Of a DNA stretch of 33,842 nucleotides, positions 3,148-20,206 are shown piece by piece; positions within the stretch are counted from its first letter, which is position 1; the number at the start of each line of letters is the position of its first letter. A program made the position numbers and the translations under genes. The stretch comes from Altererythrobacter xiamenensis (lineage in GTDB: Bacteria > Pseudomonadota > Alphaproteobacteria > Sphingomonadales > Sphingomonadaceae), in assembly GCA_945906905.1 (NCBI GenBank), contig CAMDSM010000002.1:1-33842 (forward strand). The letters run 5' to 3'. The notes beneath the pieces were generated by a model, which saw nothing but the letters and a program-made list of their open reading frames with translations, was not told the DNA's origin and searched no databases.

Positions 3148-4389
3148 ATGTTCTCTATGGAGAGATCAGGGTCAAGATTGAGCGAATTGTTCGGACGCAT
3201 CGGGCTGGCAATGGCCGGCAAACGCAACCCCTGGGGCACTCCCCCGGGCGGTGATGGCGGCGATGGCAGTGATAGCCGTGGCAGTCCTGAGGGCGAACAG
3301 CCGGCGGAACCCGCAGCGGAGGGTAATGACGATGCCCCGCGCGGCCCGCGCAATCCGTGGCAACCCGCTGGTGGCGGGGGCAGTGGTGGTGGGGGCGAGC
3401 CTGATCGCCCGCGGCGCTCGGCCTCGATCGAGGATCTGTTCCGCCAGCGTGGCCCCGAAGGCCCGCGCAAGGGCGGCGGCGGTCCGCGCGGCCCCAATTT
3501 CCGCCTGCCTGAACGCCCCGGCGGCGGCAGCTGGCTGCCGCTGATAGTGGGCGGTGTGGCGGTGATCTGGCTGTTTGTATCCTCGGTCCATTTCATCCAG
3601 CCGCGCGAGCAGGCCGTGGTCACATGGTTTGGCGGGCGGTTCTCTCACACGCTCAATCCCGGCACCAATTTCACCATGCCGTGGCCGGTCCACACGGTGG
3701 ACGTGGAAAGCGTCAGCGACATTCGCCTTGAACGCATTCCGGACGGCAACGAGGAAAAGCTGATCCTCACCGCCGACCAGAACCTGGTCAACCTGAGCTA
3801 TCTGATCCGCTGGAACATTTCGGACCTGTCGCTCTATCGCTTCCAGCTGGAGCAGCCGAACGAAACGATGCGCGAAATCGGCGAAGCGACGATGCGCGCA
3901 GCGGTAGCTGAACAGACTCTCGACCGGGTGCTGACCGGCGAAGGCCGTGCGGCGATCGAAGGCCAGGTGATGACCAATATGCAGGCCATCCTCGATGCCT
4001 TCCATTCGGGCATTCAGGTGCAGGGCGTTGAAATCGGCCGCACCGACGCGCCCGAAGAAGTGATCGAGAGCTTCAACGACGTGCTCGCTGCCCGCCAGGA
4101 TGCCGAACGTAATATCAACGATGCCCGCCGCTTTGAGCAGCAAGTGCTGGCTCAGGCGCAAGGCGATGCCACAGCCTTCAACAATATCTATGCCGAGTAT
4201 CGCCTGGCCCCCGAGGTCACCCGGCGCAGGCTCTACTACGAAACCATGGAGGCCGTGCTGTCACGCACCGACAAGACTATCGTCGAAGCAGCTGGTGTGA
4301 CCCCCTATCTGGCACTGCCCGAACTGCGCCGCCGCGCGGCAGCGTCTGCCGCGCCAGCACCTGCTGCCTCCGCCACAGGAGGGCAGTAA
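3148..4389 (+). CDS. hflK: FtsH protease activity modulator HflK
   Basis: HflK is an inner-membrane SPFH/Band 7 protein that with HflC forms a large periplasm-facing cage around FtsH and modulates its proteolysis. The 413-aa ORF has a long Gly/Pro-rich disordered N-terminus (GGGGSGGGGEPDRP) and one transmembrane segment at about 129-150 (WLPLIVGGVAVIWLF). The Band 7 domain follows (REQAVVTWFGGRFSHTLNPG), then an Ala/Arg/Glu-rich helical region and an Ala/Pro-rich tail. The start is uncertain. ATG 3148 has no clear Shine-Dalgarno sequence, ATG 3157 and TTG 3178 are in frame, and many HflKs begin close to the GKRNPWG motif. hflC begins one base after the stop, so the pair is an operon, and the HtrA gene follows. 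Confidence 0.95.
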   Translation: MFSMERSGSRLSELFGRIGLAMAGKRNPWGTPPGGDGGDGSDSRGSPEGEQPAEPAAEGNDDAPRGPRNPWQPAGGGGSGGGGEPDRPRRSASIEDLFRQRGPEGPRKGGGGPRGPNFRLPERPGGGSWLPLIVGGVAVIWLFVSSVHFIQPREQAVVTWFGGRFSHTLNPGTNFTMPWPVHTVDVESVSDIRLERIPDGNEEKLILTADQNLVNLSYLIRWNISDLSLYRFQLEQPNETMREIGEATMRAAVAEQTLDRVLTGEGRAAIEGQVMTNMQAILDAFHSGIQVQGVEIGRTDAPEEVIESFNDVLAARQDAERNINDARRFEQQVLAQAQGDATAFNNIYAEYRLAPEVTRRRLYYETMEAVLSRTDKTIVEAAGVTPYLALPELRRRAAASAAPAPAASATGGQ

Positions 4390-4390
4390 C

Positions 4391-5224
4391 ATGTGGGAAA
4401 CGCACAAGTCCTCGATCATCGCGGTCGGTGTTGCGCTGGTCGTTCTACTCGCCTCGCTGGTGATCGTGCCCGAGACGCATCAGGGGGTGAAAATCCGCGC
4501 CGGCCAACCGGTCGAAGTGATCAACCGCTTCGATCCAAGCCAACCTTATGGCCGGACCGGAGCGGGCCTGTGGTATCGCATCCCGCTGTATGAACGCATC
4601 CAGATGGTCGACCGCCGCGTGCTCGATCTGGAGATGGAACGGCAGGAAGTGCTGGCGATCGATCAGCAGCGGCTGGTGGTCGATGCCTATGCCCGCTTCC
4701 GCATCATCGATCCGGTGCTGATGGTCGAACGCGCCGGGACCGAGGGCCAGCTGCGCGCCGCGCTGCTGCCGATCATGAACTCTGCGCTGCGGCAGGAACT
4801 GGGCCGCCGCACTTTCGCCAGCCTGCTCACGCCCGAGCGCGGCAATGCCATGACCAACATCCGCACCGCGCTCGATCGACAGGCGCGGCAATATGGCGCG
4901 CAGATCCTCGATGTGCGGATCAAACGGGCCGACTTGCCCGATGGCACACCGCTGGAAGCCGCCTTCAGCCGGATGGAATCGGATCGTCAGGAAGAGGCCG
5001 AGACCATTCGTGCAGGCGGCCGGCGCGATGCCCAGATCATCCGGTCCGAGGCAGAAGCCGCCGCCGCGCGGACCTATGCCGATGCCTATAACAAGGACCC
5101 GGAGTTCTACGACTTCTACCGCGCCATGCAGTCCTATCGCCGCACGTTCGAGACCGGCGAGGGTGAAAGCTCGATCATCATGAGCCCGGACAACGAATAT
5201 CTGCGTCGTTTCCGGGGCGGTTGA
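4391..5224 (+). CDS. hflC: Protease modulator HflC
   Basis: This is the 277-aa SPFH partner of HflK. It has an N-terminal membrane anchor (about residues 8-27, SIIAVGVALVVLLASLVIVP) and a Band 7 domain beginning ETHQGVKIRAG. The segments VDRRVLDLEMERQEVLAIDQQ and DVRIKRADLP are typical of HflC. The C-terminal half is a charged helix (RQEEAETIRAGGRRDAQIIR) that ends in the usual DFYRAMQSYR region. It starts one base after the hflK stop, which implies translational coupling and roughly equal production, as the hetero-oligomeric cage requires. Length and order are normal for alphaproteobacteria. I see nothing unusual. Confidence 0.96.
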   Translation: MWETHKSSIIAVGVALVVLLASLVIVPETHQGVKIRAGQPVEVINRFDPSQPYGRTGAGLWYRIPLYERIQMVDRRVLDLEMERQEVLAIDQQRLVVDAYARFRIIDPVLMVERAGTEGQLRAALLPIMNSALRQELGRRTFASLLTPERGNAMTNIRTALDRQARQYGAQILDVRIKRADLPDGTPLEAAFSRMESDRQEEAETIRAGGRRDAQIIRSEAEAAAARTYADAYNKDPEFYDFYRAMQSYRRTFETGEGESSIIMSPDNEYLRRFRGG

Positions 5225-5248: not shown

Positions 5249-5297
5249 CCTGAACCGAACAAGACCGACTACATTTGTCGTTCAATGGCGGTTCAGG
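5249..5297. promoter_or_regulatory. Perfect 9-bp inverted repeat upstream of htrA
   Basis: CCTGAACCG (5249-5257) is repeated exactly in inverted orientation as CGGTTCAGG (5289-5297) around a 31-bp spacer. Inside it a CGAAC (5256-5260) lies 18 bp before CGTT, which resembles but does not match the alphaproteobacterial general-stress sigma (EcfG) pattern GGAAC-N16/17-CGTT. It sits in the 131-bp gap between hflC and the HtrA start. It may be an operator, a stress promoter or a leader hairpin. The sequence alone does not decide. Confidence 0.4.
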
Positions 5298-5355
5298 CGC
5301 GCTCGGCTCGAACGGGCCAGGCAGATGGGCCAGGGGGCACATCAATAAGATAAGG

Positions 5356-6873
5356 ATGAACAAGGACGTGAAGCCAGTGCGCTATTCTTACGGCATCACC
5401 TCGGCCCTGCTTAGTGGCGTGGCCGCCCTCTGCCTGCTCACCAGCCTGCCTGCGGGCGCGCAGGAAGCCCAGCATGAGCAGCTGCGTGGCAGCAGCCGGG
5501 CCGTGCCAGTGGCGGGCGCGCCTGCCAGTTTTGCTGAACTGACTACAACGCTGATGCCCGCAGTGGTCAACATCTCCGCCCGCCAAAGCGTGCCCGTCAC
5601 CGAAGATCCGCGCCCCAATGGTCCGCGCGTAGAGGCGGTTGCGCTGGGATCGGGCTTCCTGATTTCTGCCGATGGCTATCTTGTCACCAACAACCATGTG
5701 GTCCACCCCGATCCCCGCGCGCGGCTGCTGACCTTGTCGGTCACTCTGGCCGATGGCACAGAATATGATGCCGAGCTGGTTGGGCAGGACGAGGCCAGCG
5801 ATCTGGCCGTGCTCAAGATCACCCGCCCGCGCGCCTTCCCGTTTGTGGCATTTGGCGATTCGGACCGGGCACATGTAGGCGATTGGGTAGTCGCCATCGG
5901 CAATCCCTTCGGCCTTGATGGCACGGTAACCAGCGGGATTATCTCCGCGCTCAACCGCTCCACCGGCAGCCGCGGCGCCTTTGATCGCAGCATCCAGACC
6001 GATGCCAGCATCAATTCGGGCAATTCGGGTGGTCCTTTGTTCGACATGGCCGGGCGGGTGATCGGCATCAATCGCTTCATCCTGTCGCCTTCGGGCGGCA
6101 ATATCGGCATCGGCATGGCCATCCCGGCGTCCGACGCTGAACCCATCGTGCGCCAGCTGATCAGCGGCGAGCCAATCCAGCGCGGCTTTATCGGCGTGCA
6201 GATTGACGCGGTAGACGAGGATTTTGCCGAGGCGCTGGGAATTGCTGAAAACAGCGGTGAATTCATCCAGTCGGTGCAGCCCGGCCAGCCCGCCGCCGCG
6301 GCCGGCCTACAAGCAGCCGATGTGGTCACATCGGTCAATGACGAGGATATTACCCGCGACCGCAGCCTGTCCTATATCGTCAGCAATATCCGCCCAGGCA
6401 CACGCGTGCCGCTGGTCTATGTCCGCGATGGGCAGGAACGGCGCACCACCGTTACCGTGGGTCGCCGCCCGAGCGAGGACGACCTGCGCGCAGGCCAACC
6501 CGAAACCTTTGATCCCGCGCAGGAAGGCGCGGATCAGCTGGAACCAGGCCAGGGACGCGGGGCGTCCGAAGTCGTAATGGGCCTGCGGGTGTCGGCAATC
6601 ACGCCCATTATTGCGCGCGGCCTTGGTGCCGGGCCAGAAATGGCTGGCGTGGTGGTTCTGGCGGTCGATCCCACCGCCGATGCCGCCCGCAAGGGGCTGG
6701 TGCGCGGCTTTGTCATCCATGCGGCCAATGGCAAGCCGGTGAGCACGCCCGAGGAACTGGAGGCGGTGGTTATCGCCGCCATGGCCGCCGATCGCGACGC
6801 CGTCCTGCTGCGTATCAGCGCTCGCGGCCAGCCCGAACGCTCAGTGCCGGTGCGCTTGCGCAGCCCGGGTTGA
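5356..6873 (+). CDS. degP: Do/HtrA-family periplasmic serine endoprotease with two PDZ domains
   Basis: This protein degrades or refolds damaged proteins in the periplasm. I place the start at ATG 5356, preceded by AAGATAAGG, rather than at TTG 5275 of the track. This gives 505 aa with a signal peptide ending near LPAGAQA-type residues (about 36). The trypsin-like domain shows the full triad: His114 (NNHVVHP), Asp149 (ASDLAVLKI) and Ser224 (SGNSGGPLFD). PDZ1 is at about 300-390 (RGFIGVQIDAVDED, GDGS-type loop) and PDZ2 at about 415-500. Placement directly after hflKC groups membrane and periplasmic protein quality control, a common alphaproteobacterial order. The 131-bp upstream gap with an inverted repeat suggests a separate, possibly stress-responsive, promoter. 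DegP and DegQ cannot be told apart here. Confidence 0.94.
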   Translation: MNKDVKPVRYSYGITSALLSGVAALCLLTSLPAGAQEAQHEQLRGSSRAVPVAGAPASFAELTTTLMPAVVNISARQSVPVTEDPRPNGPRVEAVALGSGFLISADGYLVTNNHVVHPDPRARLLTLSVTLADGTEYDAELVGQDEASDLAVLKITRPRAFPFVAFGDSDRAHVGDWVVAIGNPFGLDGTVTSGIISALNRSTGSRGAFDRSIQTDASINSGNSGGPLFDMAGRVIGINRFILSPSGGNIGIGMAIPASDAEPIVRQLISGEPIQRGFIGVQIDAVDEDFAEALGIAENSGEFIQSVQPGQPAAAAGLQAADVVTSVNDEDITRDRSLSYIVSNIRPGTRVPLVYVRDGQERRTTVTVGRRPSEDDLRAGQPETFDPAQEGADQLEPGQGRGASEVVMGLRVSAITPIIARGLGAGPEMAGVVVLAVDPTADAARKGLVRGFVIHAANGKPVSTPEELEAVVIAAMAADRDAVLLRISARGQPERSVPVRLRSPG

Positions 6874-6899: not shown

Positions 6900-7391
6900 C
6901 TAGGCAGCCTGCTTGCCGGTTTCCGGCGCGGTGCTCCATGGCGCTGTTCCAACCGTGCCAGCGGCATCGCCAGCAGTCGTAGCGGTTGCCAGGCACACCA
7001 GCGTTTCACCCAGCGTCCGCGGCCCGAACAAGGCCCGCATCGGCAACCACAAGGGCGCTGTCAGCAGACGGCGCAGCGGCGTGGCAAAGGATGCGGTGGT
7101 CTCGACCATTTCGCAAGCAAAGCCGCATTCCTCAAGCATCAACGGCAATTGGCCGGCAGAAATGGCCGAAATATGCCGCTGGCTGCGATAGTTCTTTACG
7201 CCAAAGCCCCACAATTCACCCGTGGGCATGAATCTTATCCGGCCCTCGAAGAAGCCGATATTGGGGGTTGAAAGCACCAGCTTTCCACCTGGCTTGAGCA
7301 AAATGCGGCACTGTCTGAGGAAGTCTCGCGGATCGTCGAGATGTTCGATGGTTTCGGCAGCTGTCCCAGACCGGTGATGGCCGCGCGGCAC
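6900..7391 (-). pseudogene. SAM-dependent methyltransferase, C-terminal fragment lacking the cofactor-binding N-terminus
   Basis: The readable protein enters a class I methyltransferase fold at ETIEHLDDPRDFL, followed by LLKPGGKLVLSTPN (motifs II/III) and a plausible C-terminal half. The region that should come before it, including the glycine-rich SAM-binding motif I (E/DxGxGxG), is absent. The first dozen codons from ATG 7391 (MPRGHHRSGTAA) do not resemble the family. Instead they are the complement of the plus-strand fragment that starts here. A full-length relative would need roughly 70-120 more N-terminal residues. I infer loss of the 5' end at about 7355-7372. The stop (TAG at 6900-6902) is 26 bp from the htrA stop, a normal convergent arrangement. 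It is probably non-functional for methyl transfer. A very divergent start cannot be excluded without a search. Confidence 0.65.
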
Positions 7392-7615
7392 TGGCCCGCA
7401 GGCTGGCCGAGCAAGGCCACTGGCAGACCAATTTCATCGCGATTGCTGCCACATATCTGCCCGCAGAAAACTATGCCGACACAATAGTGCGCGCACAGGC
7501 ACTGGGTGCTCCGCTCGATTGTGGCAGGCTGCAGCAGGCGGTCACTCTGTTGCAACAAGCCGGAGCAGAGGCGGCGGCGGCGCGCTTTTGGCCGGGGGAA
7601 TGTCCGGCGGGTTGA
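7358..7615 (+). pseudogene. Unrecognised gene, C-terminal fragment without a start region
   Basis: The plus frame ending at TGA 7613-7615 reads as credible protein for about 85 codons (GRAALARRLAEQGHW, YLPAENYADTIVRAQALG, VTLLQQAGAEAAAARFWPGE). It is Ala/Leu/Gln-rich and helical, like the tail of a TPR or alpha-solenoid protein. Its stop lies three bases from the lptA stop, as expected for an ordinary convergent neighbour. Going upstream, sensible sequence ends near 7358-7372, exactly where the opposing methyltransferase fragment also loses its 5' part. No start codon with a ribosome site precedes it. I do not recognise the family. The reading as a truncated remnant rests on the shared breakpoint. 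Confidence 0.5.
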
Positions 7616-7618
7616 AAC

Positions 7619-8221
7619 CTAGTTCCGCTCGGGAACCGCAAATGTGCCCGACACGCGCCCGCCGCGGCTTTGCCCGGCCACGCCTGATCCGCCGCCATCG
7701 ACGCTCGACAAGCCGGTGTTGAGATCAATAACCAGCCGCCCGCCGTTGAGATTATCACCGCCGCGGCGCAAGACCACGCCGCCGGTCAGGATGATCACCT
7801 TGCGGTTGAAATCATAGATCCCGGCAGACCCGCTCGCCCGCTCATCCCCGCGCGTAACCACGACCCCGCCGGTGGCATCGACACGGCTGATCGTCAGCGC
7901 GCCGCTGTCATCATAGGCGATGGTGGTCCGTTCGGCTGTCAGCTGCATGTCACCCTGGCGGATCTGCACCCCGCCCGACAGGACAACGCGGTTCTGCCGG
8001 TCCTGCAATTCAATCCGGTCGGCCTCAAAGCTGACCGGCTGATTGGTGTTGAACCCGCCCAGCGCCTGTGCCCCGGCCATCGAGCCAAAGCCCAAGGCCG
8101 CCACTGCCCCCGCCAGCGCACCAGCGGCAAGACCGCGCCGGGCCAGTTGGCCGAGCGAGAGGCGTGGGTGTTCCATGGCGCCCAGCGATAGCCGATCAGC
8201 GCGGGCAAGCAAGCGGATCAT
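7619..8221 (-). CDS. lptA: LPS transport periplasmic protein LptA (OstA-like)
   Basis: LptA forms the periplasmic bridge that carries lipopolysaccharide from the LptBFGC complex to LptDE. The 200-aa product has a hydrophobic export segment (about residues 30-52, AAGALAGAVAALGFGSMAGAQA). The OstA/LptA beta-jellyroll begins NQPVSFEADRIELQDRQNRVVLSGGVQIRQGDMQLTA in outline, with the repeated G-V-x-(I/V) strands of the family. The ORF starts at ATG 8221, which overlaps the lptC stop by four bases (ATGA), giving strong translational coupling. An internal ATG (MEHPRLS) would still leave the export signal. The gene order rnd-lptC-lptA on one strand is compact and typical of sphingomonads. Confidence 0.88.
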   Translation of the reverse strand: MIRLLARADRLSLGAMEHPRLSLGQLARRGLAAGALAGAVAALGFGSMAGAQALGGFNTNQPVSFEADRIELQDRQNRVVLSGGVQIRQGDMQLTAERTTIAYDDSGALTISRVDATGGVVVTRGDERASGSAGIYDFNRKVIILTGGVVLRRGGDNLNGGRLVIDLNTGLSSVDGGGSGVAGQSRGGRVSGTFAVPERN

Positions 8222-8898
8222 TGGTTCACTCCGGGCAATCGGGTTGGCAATTGGCGCGGCAAATGCAGCTGGCCGGGCACCATCCGCAGCCGCGCATTGC
8301 CGATCAGCGACAGGTTGCGCCCGGGCAGGTCGGCCCGGAACTGGTCGGCGGCAAAGGCACCCGCCGGGATCGTCCCTTCGACCCGCCCGCGCCCGGTGAG
8401 CACTTGCGCGGGCAGATCGACCAGCACGTTGCGCGCGGTCAGGCTGTAGCCATCGGCAGCGGTGAACGAGATCGCCCCGGGGATCGCCACCTGCTCACGC
8501 TCGATATCATAGGCACCGCCCGCCGCGCTCAGCACCGCCGGGCCATCGGGCAGGACAATCCGGGCGACCAGATCGCGCATTTCCACCGTGGGCACGCGGT
8601 TGCTCACCTGCACCGCATCGCCCGCCGAAAGCGAGAACGGGCGGCCGCTGGCATCGACGCCGCGATACATGGCATTGTCCATCCGCAGCCGATCTTCGGC
8701 AATCGCCACCTTGTTGCGATCGAGCAGGAACGACAGTTCTCCGCGCGGAGACAAAGGCGTAATCAGCATCATCGCCGCCACCACGCCGACCAGCGCCGGC
8801 AGCACCACGGCCGCGGCGCGCACGGCCCGGTCAAGCCCAGAGCCGGGCGCGGCATAGGCCTGGCGGCGATTGCGGATGGTATCGGCTTGGAGCGTCAT
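8218..8898 (-). CDS. lptC: LPS export system protein LptC
   Basis: LptC is a bitopic inner-membrane protein that receives LPS from LptFG and passes it to LptA. The product has an N-terminal membrane helix (about residues 27-47, AVRAAAVVLPALVGVVAAMML) and a periplasmic jellyroll of LptC/DUF1239 type (SAGDAVQVSNRVPTVEMRDLVARI, GAYDIEREQVAIPGAISF). I place the start at ATG 8898 (MTLQADTIRNRRQ, 226 aa). The 20-residue extension up to ATG 8958 overlaps the end of rnd and has no hydrophobic or conserved character. Its stop overlaps the lptA start by ATGA. lptB and lptD are not in the window. Confidence 0.85.
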   Translation of the reverse strand: MTLQADTIRNRRQAYAAPGSGLDRAVRAAAVVLPALVGVVAAMMLITPLSPRGELSFLLDRNKVAIAEDRLRMDNAMYRGVDASGRPFSLSAGDAVQVSNRVPTVEMRDLVARIVLPDGPAVLSAAGGAYDIEREQVAIPGAISFTAADGYSLTARNVLVDLPAQVLTGRGRVEGTIPAGAFAADQFRADLPGRNLSLIGNARLRMVPGQLHLPRQLPTRLPGVNQ

Positions 8899-8924
8899 GG
8901 CCTTGGTCTGTTGTCCCAGCGAGA

Positions 8925-9542
8925 TTACTCGTGGCTGAAGATGTCCTTGTCGATCCATCCGGCGATGTCGAGCAGGGCGCGCGCGGGCAGGAATTCATAG
9001 CACGCCTGCGCCAGCTCCAGCCGCCCTTCGCGTTCCAGCCGGGGGATCAATATATCGCGCAAGCGGTGGAGATAGCGCACATCGCTGGCGGCATATTCGC
9101 GCTGCGCATCGCTGAGCACGGGCGCGCCCCAATCGCTCGATTGCTGCTGCTTGGACAGATCTTCGCCCAACAACTCGCTGACCAGGTTTTTCAGCCCGTG
9201 GCGATCAGTATAGGTGCGCGTCATCTTGCTGGCGATCTTGGTGCAGAACACCGGGGCGGCCATAACGCCGAGATAAAAATGGATCGCCGCCAGATCGAAG
9301 CGGGCAAAGTGATAGAGCTTGATCCGCGACGGATCGGCCAGCACCGCCTTGAGGTTGGGCGCATCAAACTTGCTGCCCTTGGCAAAGCGCACCAGATGCT
9401 CATCGCCGCGCCCGTCGCTGATTTGCAGCAGGCACAGCCGATCACGGTGCGTGACAAGCCCCATGGTCTCGGTATCGACCGCAACCGGGCCGGGGGCCAG
9501 CACATCGGCGGGCAGGTCTTCTTCGTGGAAATAGACAGTCAT
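8925..9542 (-). CDS. rnd: Ribonuclease D-type 3'-5' exonuclease
   Basis: This is a cytoplasmic DEDDy-family exoribonuclease involved in 3' trimming of stable RNAs. The about 205-aa protein shows the metal-binding residues in order: DTE in AVDTETMGL (Exo I), the Asp of YHFARFDLAAI (Exo II), and YxxxD in YAASDVRYLHRL (Exo III). It lacks the C-terminal HRDC domains of E. coli RNase D (about 375 aa). Short, exonuclease-only proteins of this length are usual in alphaproteobacteria. The start could be ATG 9551 (MAAMTVYF) or ATG 9542 (MTVYFHEE). The second matches the usual N-terminus better. It leads the rnd-lptC-lptA run and is divergent from ung. Confidence 0.9.
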   Translation of the reverse strand: MTVYFHEEDLPADVLAPGPVAVDTETMGLVTHRDRLCLLQISDGRGDEHLVRFAKGSKFDAPNLKAVLADPSRIKLYHFARFDLAAIHFYLGVMAAPVFCTKIASKMTRTYTDRHGLKNLVSELLGEDLSKQQQSSDWGAPVLSDAQREYAASDVRYLHRLRDILIPRLEREGRLELAQACYEFLPARALLDIAGWIDKDIFSHE

Positions 9543-9584
9543 AGCGGCCATGCCTTAGGCGGATTGATGAACAAGGGGAAGTGT

Positions 9585-17361: not shown

Positions 17362-18732
17362 TCAAACCGCCACGGCAGCCTTGGCCGGCCCTCGTCTTGC
17401 GCGGCTAAACTGCGCCTTCAACTCCGGCCCCTCAACCCGCCGGACATAGGACCACAGCCCGCATTGCAGCCCCACCAGCATGAACAGGAACGGCTGATAG
17501 GCAATCCCCACAAAGGCCGCGCCCGCCAGATAGACTAGGTGCGCCTGTTGCAGCGCAGTCGCCAGCCCCGCCTGCCAGCTGCCCCGATTGGAATCGCGAC
17601 GCTGGAACCGGCGGCGCAGCTTTTCCATCTGCCACAGCCCCAGCAATTGCAGCCACAGCCACAGGCCAAGCCCGATCCAGCCCTGTTCACCCAACATCTC
17701 GAAATAGGATGAGTGATAGGCCCGCGCCTCCTCGGTCACTTCGCGGAATTCCACTTGGCTGTTGCCAGCCTCGCCCGTGACCACGCGGGTCTGATAGGTG
17801 AAGCTGTTGGCGCGAAAGGCATCAAAGCCGCCACCCATCGGATGATCGCGGACATAGTCGAGCGTCCAGCCCCACACCGCCAGCCGGGTGGAGGCCGACT
17901 GATCGCCTTCATAACCGCCGATGGTGCCCATCCGCTCGACATAGCTTTGCGGCAGGAACGGCACTGCCGCCATCATCGCCAGCCCCGCCAGCCCGAGATA
18001 GACAAACCGATAACGCACCGATCGCAGCATCACCACGCCCAGCACGCCAAGGCACACAAGCCCCGTGCGGGCCGAAGTGCCGACCGGGATCAGCATACAG
18101 GCAAAGATTAGCCCGGCGGTAAAAGCGGTTACCATCCAGCCCGGTTTGAACAATGTGCCATGCCGCGCCAGCCACAGCGCCAGCGGAATAATCGCAATCG
18201 CCACGCAGGAGATGATCGAACCTTCGTAGAGGCCCGAATTCTCGTCCACCAGCAGGCTCAAGGTGGCATAGCCACCGCCGCCAAAAATGGTTTTTACCCC
18301 GCCGTTGATGGTGATCGTGCCCACCGCCAGCACGATGAACAGCACCGCCGCCTCAATCCTCAGCTTGGTCCGCAAGGTCAGCGGCAGGAGCGAGGCAAAG
18401 ACCAGCGCCTTCCACACCCAGTCCCACTTCTCCCACGCCGAATCCTGAAACTGTGCGCCCAGCGTAGTCATCCCGCACCAGGCCAGCAGCGCCAGAATCA
18501 GACCTTGGCGCAAGGTAAAGCGCGCATCGGACTTGGCATCGAGCAGCAGCCAGCCGGCAAAGGCAGCGACAAAAGCGATCAGCGACAATTGCAGGCTCTG
18601 GATCAGACCCCAGCCGATTTTCTGCGGGGCGACGATATCAATATAGACATAAGCCAGCACCCAGATGAAAGGGCGCTTGATCCCCAGCAAAAGCAGCAGG
18701 CCAATAAAGCCGAGCAGGGCGAAATCGAGCAT
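17362..18732 (-). CDS. Putative O-glycosylation ligase, exosortase A-associated (Wzy/WaaL-like)
   Basis: The 456-aa polytopic protein has about ten hydrophobic segments. Its N-terminal region (LLLLGIKRPFIWVLAYVYIDIVAPQ) is typical of the exosortase A-associated O-glycosylation ligase family (TIGR03097 type, DUF5935 N-terminus). The O-antigen ligase loop follows with STRLAVWGWTLDYVRDHPMGGGFDAF and AYHSSYFEMLGEQGWIG. Such proteins are thought to transfer lipid-linked glycans to PEP-CTERM proteins or to join surface polysaccharides, acting on the periplasmic face. I place the start at ATG 18732 (MLDFALLGFIG). The 41-residue track extension is really the antisense-frame overlap with the small upstream ORF. 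GACTGAGGCG supplies the ribosome site, four bases after the upstream stop. The function is predicted by family only. Confidence 0.9.
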   Translation of the reverse strand: MLDFALLGFIGLLLLLGIKRPFIWVLAYVYIDIVAPQKIGWGLIQSLQLSLIAFVAAFAGWLLLDAKSDARFTLRQGLILALLAWCGMTTLGAQFQDSAWEKWDWVWKALVFASLLPLTLRTKLRIEAAVLFIVLAVGTITINGGVKTIFGGGGYATLSLLVDENSGLYEGSIISCVAIAIIPLALWLARHGTLFKPGWMVTAFTAGLIFACMLIPVGTSARTGLVCLGVLGVVMLRSVRYRFVYLGLAGLAMMAAVPFLPQSYVERMGTIGGYEGDQSASTRLAVWGWTLDYVRDHPMGGGFDAFRANSFTYQTRVVTGEAGNSQVEFREVTEEARAYHSSYFEMLGEQGWIGLGLWLWLQLLGLWQMEKLRRRFQRRDSNRGSWQAGLATALQQAHLVYLAGAAFVGIAYQPFLFMLVGLQCGLWSYVRRVEGPELKAQFSRARRGPAKAAVAV

Positions 18733-18736
18733 CGCC

Positions 18737-18910
18737 TCAGTCCTGTCCCGCGTCTTTGGTACCCTTAGGCGTCGTTTCGGCCTGTTTGCGGCGCCAGCGC
18801 TGCGGGGGCTTTTCGCCGCCCTCCTCGTCCAGTTCACCGCGAGACAGCATGGCAATGGCCGCGCAGGCCATCAGTCCATGCGTCAGGGCAAGGGTGAGCA
18901 CATCGATCAT
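18737..18910 (-). CDS. 57-aa micro-protein upstream of the XrtA-associated ligase (not in ORF track)
   Basis: The minus strand encodes ATG at 18910 to TGA at 18737, beginning MIDVLTLALTHGLMACAAIAML. This is one short hydrophobic helix (about residues 4-22) followed by a highly charged tail (ELDEEGGEKPPQRWRRKQ, ending GTKDAGQD). It falls below the track's 60-aa cut-off. It is supported by its position: the stop lies four bases before the ligase start and contributes to that gene's ribosome-binding site, and the coding sense is protein-like with a membrane-then-cytosol pattern. It may be a small membrane accessory of the ligase. I do not recognise a family and saw no motif. No strong Shine-Dalgarno sequence precedes its own ATG. 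Confidence 0.6.
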   Translation of the reverse strand: MIDVLTLALTHGLMACAAIAMLSRGELDEEGGEKPPQRWRRKQAETTPKGTKDAGQD

Positions 18911-18913
18911 CGC

Positions 18914-18934
18914 ACTGCCGTCCTATCAGGCAGT
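18914..18934. repeat. Short inverted repeat in the divergent XrtA-locus promoter region
   Basis: ACTGCC (18914-18919) and GGCAGT (18929-18934) form a perfect 6-bp dyad with a 9-bp spacer. They lie in the 66-bp gap between the divergent micro-protein and glycosyltransferase genes. TTGACG at 18937-18942 could be a -35 element for the plus gene, but no convincing -10 follows. It is a possible shared operator and weak on its own. Confidence 0.3.
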
Positions 18935-18976
18935 CATTGACGCGCCGTTAAACATGTCGTGGCACTAATGCAGGCC

Positions 18977-20206
18977 ATGACCCGCGTGCTCCACGTCCTC
19001 GATCACTCGCTGCCCTTGCACAGCGGATACACCTTCCGCACCCGCGCGATCCTGCATGCACAAGCGGGTATGGGGCTGGAGGTGCGCGGGATCACGGGCT
19101 TGCGGCATATGGCTCAGGGGCCGGATATCGAGCAGGCAGAAGGCCTTACCTTTCACCGCACGCGGGGCGGTGCCAGCGGACCACCTGCTTATCGCGAATG
19201 GCGCGAGGTGGCCGCTCTCACCGATGCGATCTGCGCGCTGGCAGTCGACTGGCGGCCCGATGTGCTCCACGCCCATTCGCCCGCCTTGTGCGGCCTTGCT
19301 GCCGTTCGCGCGGGCAAGCGGCTGGGCATTCCGGTGGTTTATGAAATCCGCGCTTTCTGGGAGGATGCTTCGGTTGGCAATGGCACCGGGCAAGCCGGAT
19401 CGCTCAGATACCGCCTCACCCGCGCCCTGGAGAACCATGTGGTCGCTCAGGCTGACCGCGTGGTGACGATTTGCCACGGCTTGGCTGACGATCTGTTGGC
19501 GCGCGGCGTGGCGGCAGGCAAGTTGTCGATCATGCCCAATGGTGTCGATCTGGAACTGTTTGGCAATCCGGTGCCGCGCGATCCGGCGCTGGCTGATGAG
19601 CTGAAACTGGGAAATGGCCCCGTGATCGGCTTTATCGGCAGCTTTTATGACTACGAAGGGCTGGACGATCTGGTGTCAGCCATGCCGCTGCTGTTGCAGA
19701 GCCATCCCGATGCCCGGCTGCTGCTGGTGGGTGGAGGGCCGATGGAGGGGGCGATCAGGGCGCAAGTGCTCGCCTCGCCCGCCGCCCACGCGATCCGCTT
19801 TGCCGGACGGGTGCCGCACGGCGAGGTCGAACGCTATTATGCGCTGGCCGATATCATGGCCTATCCGCGCAAGGCCAGCCGCCTGACCGATCTGGTCACG
19901 CCGTTGAAGCCGCTGGAAGCCATGGCGCAGGGTAAACTTGTCGCCGCCAGCGATGTCGGCGGACACCGCGAGTTGATGACCCATGGGCTGACCGGCAGGC
20001 TATTCGCGCCCGATGATCCTGCCGCCTGCGCCGCCTCGTTGGCCGAACTGCTCGACCAGCGCGGCGAATGGAACACCATGCGCACGGCCGCGCAAAACCA
20101 TGTTCGCGACCATCACGATTGGGCGCGCAATGCACAGCGTTATCAAGACGTTTACCAAATCCTGTTAGCCGGATCGGTGAATAGCCGGAACAGCAAAGCC
20201 GCCTGA
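18977..20206 (+). CDS. Exosortase A-associated glycosyltransferase (GT4, TIGR04063-like)
   Basis: This is a cytoplasmic or membrane-peripheral GT4 retaining glycosyltransferase that builds surface glycan on a lipid carrier. The N-terminus TRVLHVLDHSLPLHSGYTFR is the hallmark of the PEP-CTERM/XrtA-associated glycosyltransferase family. It is followed by DVLHAHSPALCGLAAV and the C-lobe nucleotide-sugar site. That site comprises IGFIGSFYDYEGLDDL, PRKASRLTDLVTPLKPLEAMAQG and the E(x7)E-type segment there, close to the GT4 consensus. Start candidates are GTG 18959, ATG 18968 and ATG 18977. The last gives the canonical MTRVLHVLDH start (409 aa). Its stop overlaps the next gene by one base (TGATG). 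It stands divergent from the O-glycosylation ligase, so the pair likely serves one pathway. The acceptor and sugar are unknown. Confidence 0.92.
   Translation: MTRVLHVLDHSLPLHSGYTFRTRAILHAQAGMGLEVRGITGLRHMAQGPDIEQAEGLTFHRTRGGASGPPAYREWREVAALTDAICALAVDWRPDVLHAHSPALCGLAAVRAGKRLGIPVVYEIRAFWEDASVGNGTGQAGSLRYRLTRALENHVVAQADRVVTICHGLADDLLARGVAAGKLSIMPNGVDLELFGNPVPRDPALADELKLGNGPVIGFIGSFYDYEGLDDLVSAMPLLLQSHPDARLLLVGGGPMEGAIRAQVLASPAAHAIRFAGRVPHGEVERYYALADIMAYPRKASRLTDLVTPLKPLEAMAQGKLVAASDVGGHRELMTHGLTGRLFAPDDPAACAASLAELLDQRGEWNTMRTAAQNHVRDHHDWARNAQRYQDVYQILLAGSVNSRNSKAA

Follow-up and report, generated by a model that had tools for sequence, protein, structure and literature searches.

Two truncated genes beside lptA in Altererythrobacter xiamenensis as the probable scar of a deleted exopolysaccharide locus

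The window, i.e., the whole stretch of 33,842 nucleotides analyzed here, represents the entire contig C2 of an Altererythrobacter xiamenensis assembly (G000; 2.73 Mb, 261 contigs, 87.5% complete), which is fragmented, about one eighth of the genome being missing. Between htrA and lptA it carries two open frames on opposite strands, both directed away from a common point and both apparently devoid of their 5' ends, and this raises the question of what has cut two neighbouring genes at once. An earlier note on this DNA considered one deletion to be the simplest cause and proposed that a divergent module of two genes might recently have been lost, together with the promoter they shared. The features needed for the analysis are as follows.

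3148..5224, plus strand: a gene pair which we take to be hflK-hflC, upstream of htrA, with hflC-htrA adjacency as in relatives
5275..6873, plus strand: htrA, Do-family serine protease with two PDZ domains, intact, the methyltransferase remnant being 26 bp away
6900..7358, minus strand: remnant of a class I SAM methyltransferase of ~249 aa, of which ~146 C-terminal residues are left (C-terminal part of PF13489/PF08241)
7350..7363, no strand: junction, from codon comparison with the methyltransferase of two relatives (G004/G015) and nine plus-gene homologues
7361..7615, plus strand: remnant of the gene hereafter called the plus gene, which encodes ~235 aa at full length and here retains its final ~80-85 codons, start codon gone
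7619..8221, minus strand: intact lptA (LptD_N/LptA domain), which relatives carry in convergent orientation to the plus gene
8218..8958, minus strand: lptC-like gene, the order lptA-lptC-rnd being kept in relatives
8925..9551, minus strand: presumably an rnd-like ribonuclease D gene, a conserved right-flank neighbour (order by tblastn)

The minus-strand open frame spans 6900-7391, and its match to PF13489 (Methyltransf_23, E 2.6e-9; Pfam search) is limited to profile positions 87-161 of 164, so that the C-terminal half of a Rossmann domain is present, which fits the class I methyltransferases of this family. Full-length homologues were revealed in Alteraurantiacibacter aestuarii JCM 16339 (G004; 249 aa, C3:290678-291427, 66% amino acid identity to the remnant) and in Altererythrobacter sp. 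KTW20L (G015; 248 aa, contig C12, 60% identity), both among the relatives compared, the latter being the closest relative of G000 by hflC, htrA and ftsK identity. Alignment to these two proteins confirmed the statement of the earlier note that the fragment starts at ETIEHLDDP (pattern E[TV]IEHLDDP) without motif I: this point corresponds to residue ~104, and the first ~103 residues are gone. The SAM-binding motif I (DxGxxxG; ILDxGAYTGALISRL, LDLGAYTG in G004) is located upstream of the junction in the full-length protein and is thus absent from the frame, which, judging from the sequence, would be a gene remnant and not a functional member of the family. The methyltransferase gene was found in only three of the 40 genomes of the genus; in A. 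aestuarii it lies within an exopolysaccharide (EPS) locus, at a distance of 25 kb from the plus gene, to which it is antiparallel, while in KTW20L it stands outside the EPS locus, on a contig other than that of the plus gene. Its rarity and its other location in KTW20L mark it as an accessory gene.

The plus frame, as had also been noted, begins mid-protein and stops three bases from the lptA stop codon (TGA at 7613-7615, lptA stop codon at 7619-7621); no ATG, GTG or TTG occurs in it upstream of a GTG near 7487. The full-length protein (~235 aa) possesses an N-terminal hydrophobic anchor and weak similarity to TPR_16, and the NCBIfam search gave no match for it. The gene is present at full length in most genomes of the genus, G000 not being one of them. 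It is convergent with lptA and, where both genes were on the stretch examined, adjoins it in nearly every relative; upstream, an O-antigen ligase (Wzy_C) overlaps or abuts it, the plus gene being the last gene of this operon. In G000 the adjacency of the plus gene and lptA is preserved, and the ligase is absent. The window further contains, near gltB and some 10 kb away from lptA, a DUF5935/Wzy_C O-antigen-ligase-like gene together with a glycosyltransferase (17362-20206); this ligase belongs to a different family than the lost one. In another genome (G008, contig C27; L291 3365-3907) the plus gene beside lptA seems to lack its C-terminal ~60 residues, and the gene may therefore decay in more than one way.

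Codon-by-codon comparison with the full-length relatives showed that both homologies end within 7350-7363 and that no sequence has been inserted between them; the exact base is beyond resolution at the divergence of the homologues compared. The view that both genes are 5'-truncated at one shared breakpoint is thereby upheld, and the relatives, checked for the same short genes as possible contrary evidence, carry full-length ones. No repeat and no promoter-like or terminator-like site was detected at the junction. A search of the rest of the G000 assembly (87.5% complete) for the N-terminal half of the methyltransferase and for that of the plus gene was negative in both cases.

As for the age of the truncation, the pN/pS of the methyltransferase is 0.34 for the remnant versus A. 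aestuarii and 0.43 for the intact pair, the plus remnant has diverged no more than the intact copies have among themselves, and neither remnant has gained stops or frameshifts. This constraint and integrity of the frames indicate that the loss is probably recent relative to the divergence of the species. Of the proposed recent loss of a divergent module, the recent loss is probable, the remnants being no more diverged than intact copies, and the module is not supported: the methyltransferase and the plus gene are adjacent in no relative examined, and the plus gene terminates the ligase operon. GC and GC3 of the intact genes are much alike on both sides of the junction, which makes a join with DNA of a distant organism unlikely.

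In relatives the operon formed by the O-antigen ligase and the plus gene closes an EPS locus of 22-38 kb, which nearly all of them have beside lptA and the far end of which is an initiating sugar transferase (PF02397 / TIGR03025), with a Poly_export protein and a BY-kinase inside; the sugar transferase, ligase and plus gene occur on one contig within ~22-38 kb in at least 16 genomes of the genus. A concatenated query composed of the export protein, BY-kinase, sugar transferase and ligase yielded no matches in G000, and the same query matched 11 of 11 control relatives, three less complete genomes included. These results are suggestive of the locus being gone from G000, an absence which incompleteness of the assembly could also explain. 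The intact EPS locus of A. aestuarii (G004:C3:265-306 kb) resembles the window in having both genes, antiparallel and with the plus gene beside lptA, but in it nothing has been deleted, and htrA lies next to PBP1A on a different contig. In that genome one deletion of ~25.5 kb (C3:~265.5 kb to ~291.0 kb) would reproduce the orientation of the junction and both truncations. The unit lost is better described as the EPS locus than as a two-gene divergent module. In one further genome (G042, contig C10; L290 5307-14194) only ~5.4 kb of the EPS locus lies between the ligase and the sugar transferase, the latter having a one-base frameshift, as one C is lacking from a C run, either by mutation or through a sequencing error.

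The left flank tells of another event. The order hflK-hflC-htrA is conserved, but in 15/15 relatives the gene facing htrA is PBP1A, behind which come msrB and a glutathione-S-transferase-like gene. In G000 these three genes are located on contig C67, where PBP1A faces ftsK, both genes being complete (the region where they meet is L154 5779-10400); the downstream neighbour of ftsK differs among relatives, which gives this side of ftsK the look of a rearrangement point. G000 is separated from its relatives by at least one large rearrangement at the htrA/PBP1A boundary, as is seen independently on two contigs. The adjacency of htrA and the methyltransferase was considered as an ancestral state and rejected, since it occurs in 0/15 relatives, PBP1A following htrA there. 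The idea that a simple deletion brought htrA and lptA together from their ancestral positions was likewise rejected: in complete relatives the two genes are ~0.4-1.2 Mb apart, and with hundreds of kilobases of chromosome between them the deletion must have been accompanied by one or more further events. One deletion, the simplest cause according to the earlier note, remains the best single explanation of the junction, though a second rearrangement, at htrA, has to be added.

Considering these data, we regard it as probable that the junction is a real chromosomal scar, and that a deletion between the methyltransferase and the antiparallel plus gene removed the EPS locus. An illegitimate (non-homologous or short-microhomology) deletion would have fused the methyltransferase at codon ~104 to the antiparallel plus gene at codon ~150, taking out everything between them: the initiating sugar transferase, the Wza-type export protein, the BY-kinase, glycosyltransferases and the O-antigen ligase. 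Both remnants, stripped of promoters and starts, would be non-functional leftovers. The deletion would be one event in the own lineage of G000, in which the methyltransferase presumably stood inside the EPS locus, as in A. aestuarii, and a separate rearrangement, which split htrA from PBP1A and brought the latter beside ftsK, would have put htrA on the far side.

Scars of the same type, in the sense that in G000 a truncated gene is joined to the plus gene/lptA border and the intervening EPS genes are absent, were detected at this border in other genomes.

G006, contig C3 (L289 ~8729-9387): sugar transferase fragment and decapitated plus gene
Scar A, positions of the join: L067 (G005) ~3644; L286 (G010) ~2120; L287 (G012) ~8732; L066 (G015) ~10237; L288 (G045) ~9793

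In G006 (99% complete, 9 contigs) the sugar transferase, of which ~98 N-terminal residues can be aligned, is fused to a plus gene lacking its first ~110 residues, beside lptA. This scar is independent of that in the window and represents the same kind of decapitation: the two share the lptA border, a plus gene without its N-terminus, a gene fragment as the partner (in G006 that of an EPS gene, in G000 that of the methyltransferase, which stands inside the EPS locus in A. aestuarii and elsewhere in KTW20L) and the absence of the EPS locus from there. They differ in that the left partner in G006 is the same-strand initiating sugar transferase and not the antiparallel methyltransferase, and that htrA is uninvolved.

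In scar A (G005, G010:C17, G012:C2, G015:C23, G045:C1) the sugar transferase breaks off after ...KG[DE]MS. There the final ~33 codons of the ligase are attached in a different frame, and the point of attachment is nearly the same nucleotide in each of the five cases (ATGAGY followed by the SxxDYPLRN codons). Behind the join, G012, G015, G045 and G010:C17 have an intact plus gene and then lptA, but on the G005 contig the plus gene does not have lptA as its neighbour. What scar A shares with G000 is that the locus from the sugar transferase to the border of ligase and plus gene is missing; it differs in its intact plus gene and in the out-of-frame fusion of the sugar transferase with the ligase tail. 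The truncated N-terminus of the sugar transferase still appears constrained (omega 0.09, G010 versus G012). In Bac_transf trees built for both halves and for the last 90 columns the five scar A copies sit beside different intact copies; one vertical origin was therefore rejected, and the join arose or spread more than once, possibly by horizontal transfer with mosaic recombination. Microhomology at scar A (SLVG / SLVD codons) was also considered and rejected, as it does not match the out-of-frame joins observed. The frameshift in G042 mentioned above lies near the scar A codon and was set aside as unrelated to it, being a missing C in a C run. Two contigs of G010, C17 (L286 1-1285) and C4 (L292), share 99.4% identity as far as the lptA stop, beyond which their plus genes differ, an EPS locus following on one contig and the scar on the other; they may be alternative alleles, a duplication or a mixed sample.

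Of the other explanations, the one that survives best is a chimeric contig, in which the assembler or a chimeric read joined two distant loci (htrA with the methyltransferase, and the plus gene with lptA), both genes being intact in the cell. The fragmented and incomplete state of the assembly and the 0.4-1.2 Mb between the two halves in complete relatives speak for it; nevertheless, we hold it to be unlikely, because the missing N-termini and the EPS genes were found nowhere else in the assembly, a k-mer assembler would have had no misleading repeat at the junction, and the orientation and the partners match a deletion on the A. aestuarii map. Moreover, high-quality genomes show scars of the same type, and the independent contig C67 mirrors the displacement of htrA. 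Still less credible is an inversion or translocation, according to which the breakpoints would be one end of a balanced rearrangement with the N-terminal halves joined elsewhere, the EPS loss being separate or an artefact of incompleteness. Large rearrangements in G000 are indeed evidenced by the htrA/PBP1A and PBP1A/ftsK changes, and the order and orientation of htrA, the plus gene and ftsK in G011, G002 and G014 might let two inversions yield the present adjacencies; yet the reciprocal junction, with both N-termini together, is not in the G000 assembly, and the EPS genes were not found in it either.

It appears equally doubtful that the lptA border of the EPS locus is a recombination hot spot, at which a dedicated or sequence-directed mechanism would repeatedly excise the locus, giving scar A at almost one nucleotide in at least four lineages and the junction in the window as another product. 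Finally, the interpretation of the two frames as natural short genes, i.e., as a minimal methyltransferase-like protein and a short secreted one, each having a start of its own, is highly improbable and was rejected on the basis of the full-length homologues, which reach far beyond the junction in both directions: although a GTG at 7391 could start a 163 aa product in the minus frame, this product lacks the SAM-binding motif, and the plus frame has no usable start.

Deletion of the EPS locus, which we favour, has parallels in capsule and EPS loci of other bacteria, which may be bounded by a conserved chromosomal gene and lost or exchanged as a block; the case of G000 differs from them in the junction without a repeat and in lptA as the border gene. 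An open-access literature search found no description of an EPS locus bordered by lptA or of its loss. The scar in G000 is of a familiar kind, and it is lifted somewhat by the repeated breakage of this border across the genus, with near-identical scar A junctions in separate lineages. Loss of a surface-polysaccharide locus alters biofilm formation, phage sensitivity and resistance to grazing. A readable scar separates such loss from plain absence, and with several scars at one border in one genus the repeated loss of EPS becomes countable and can be tested on the tree.
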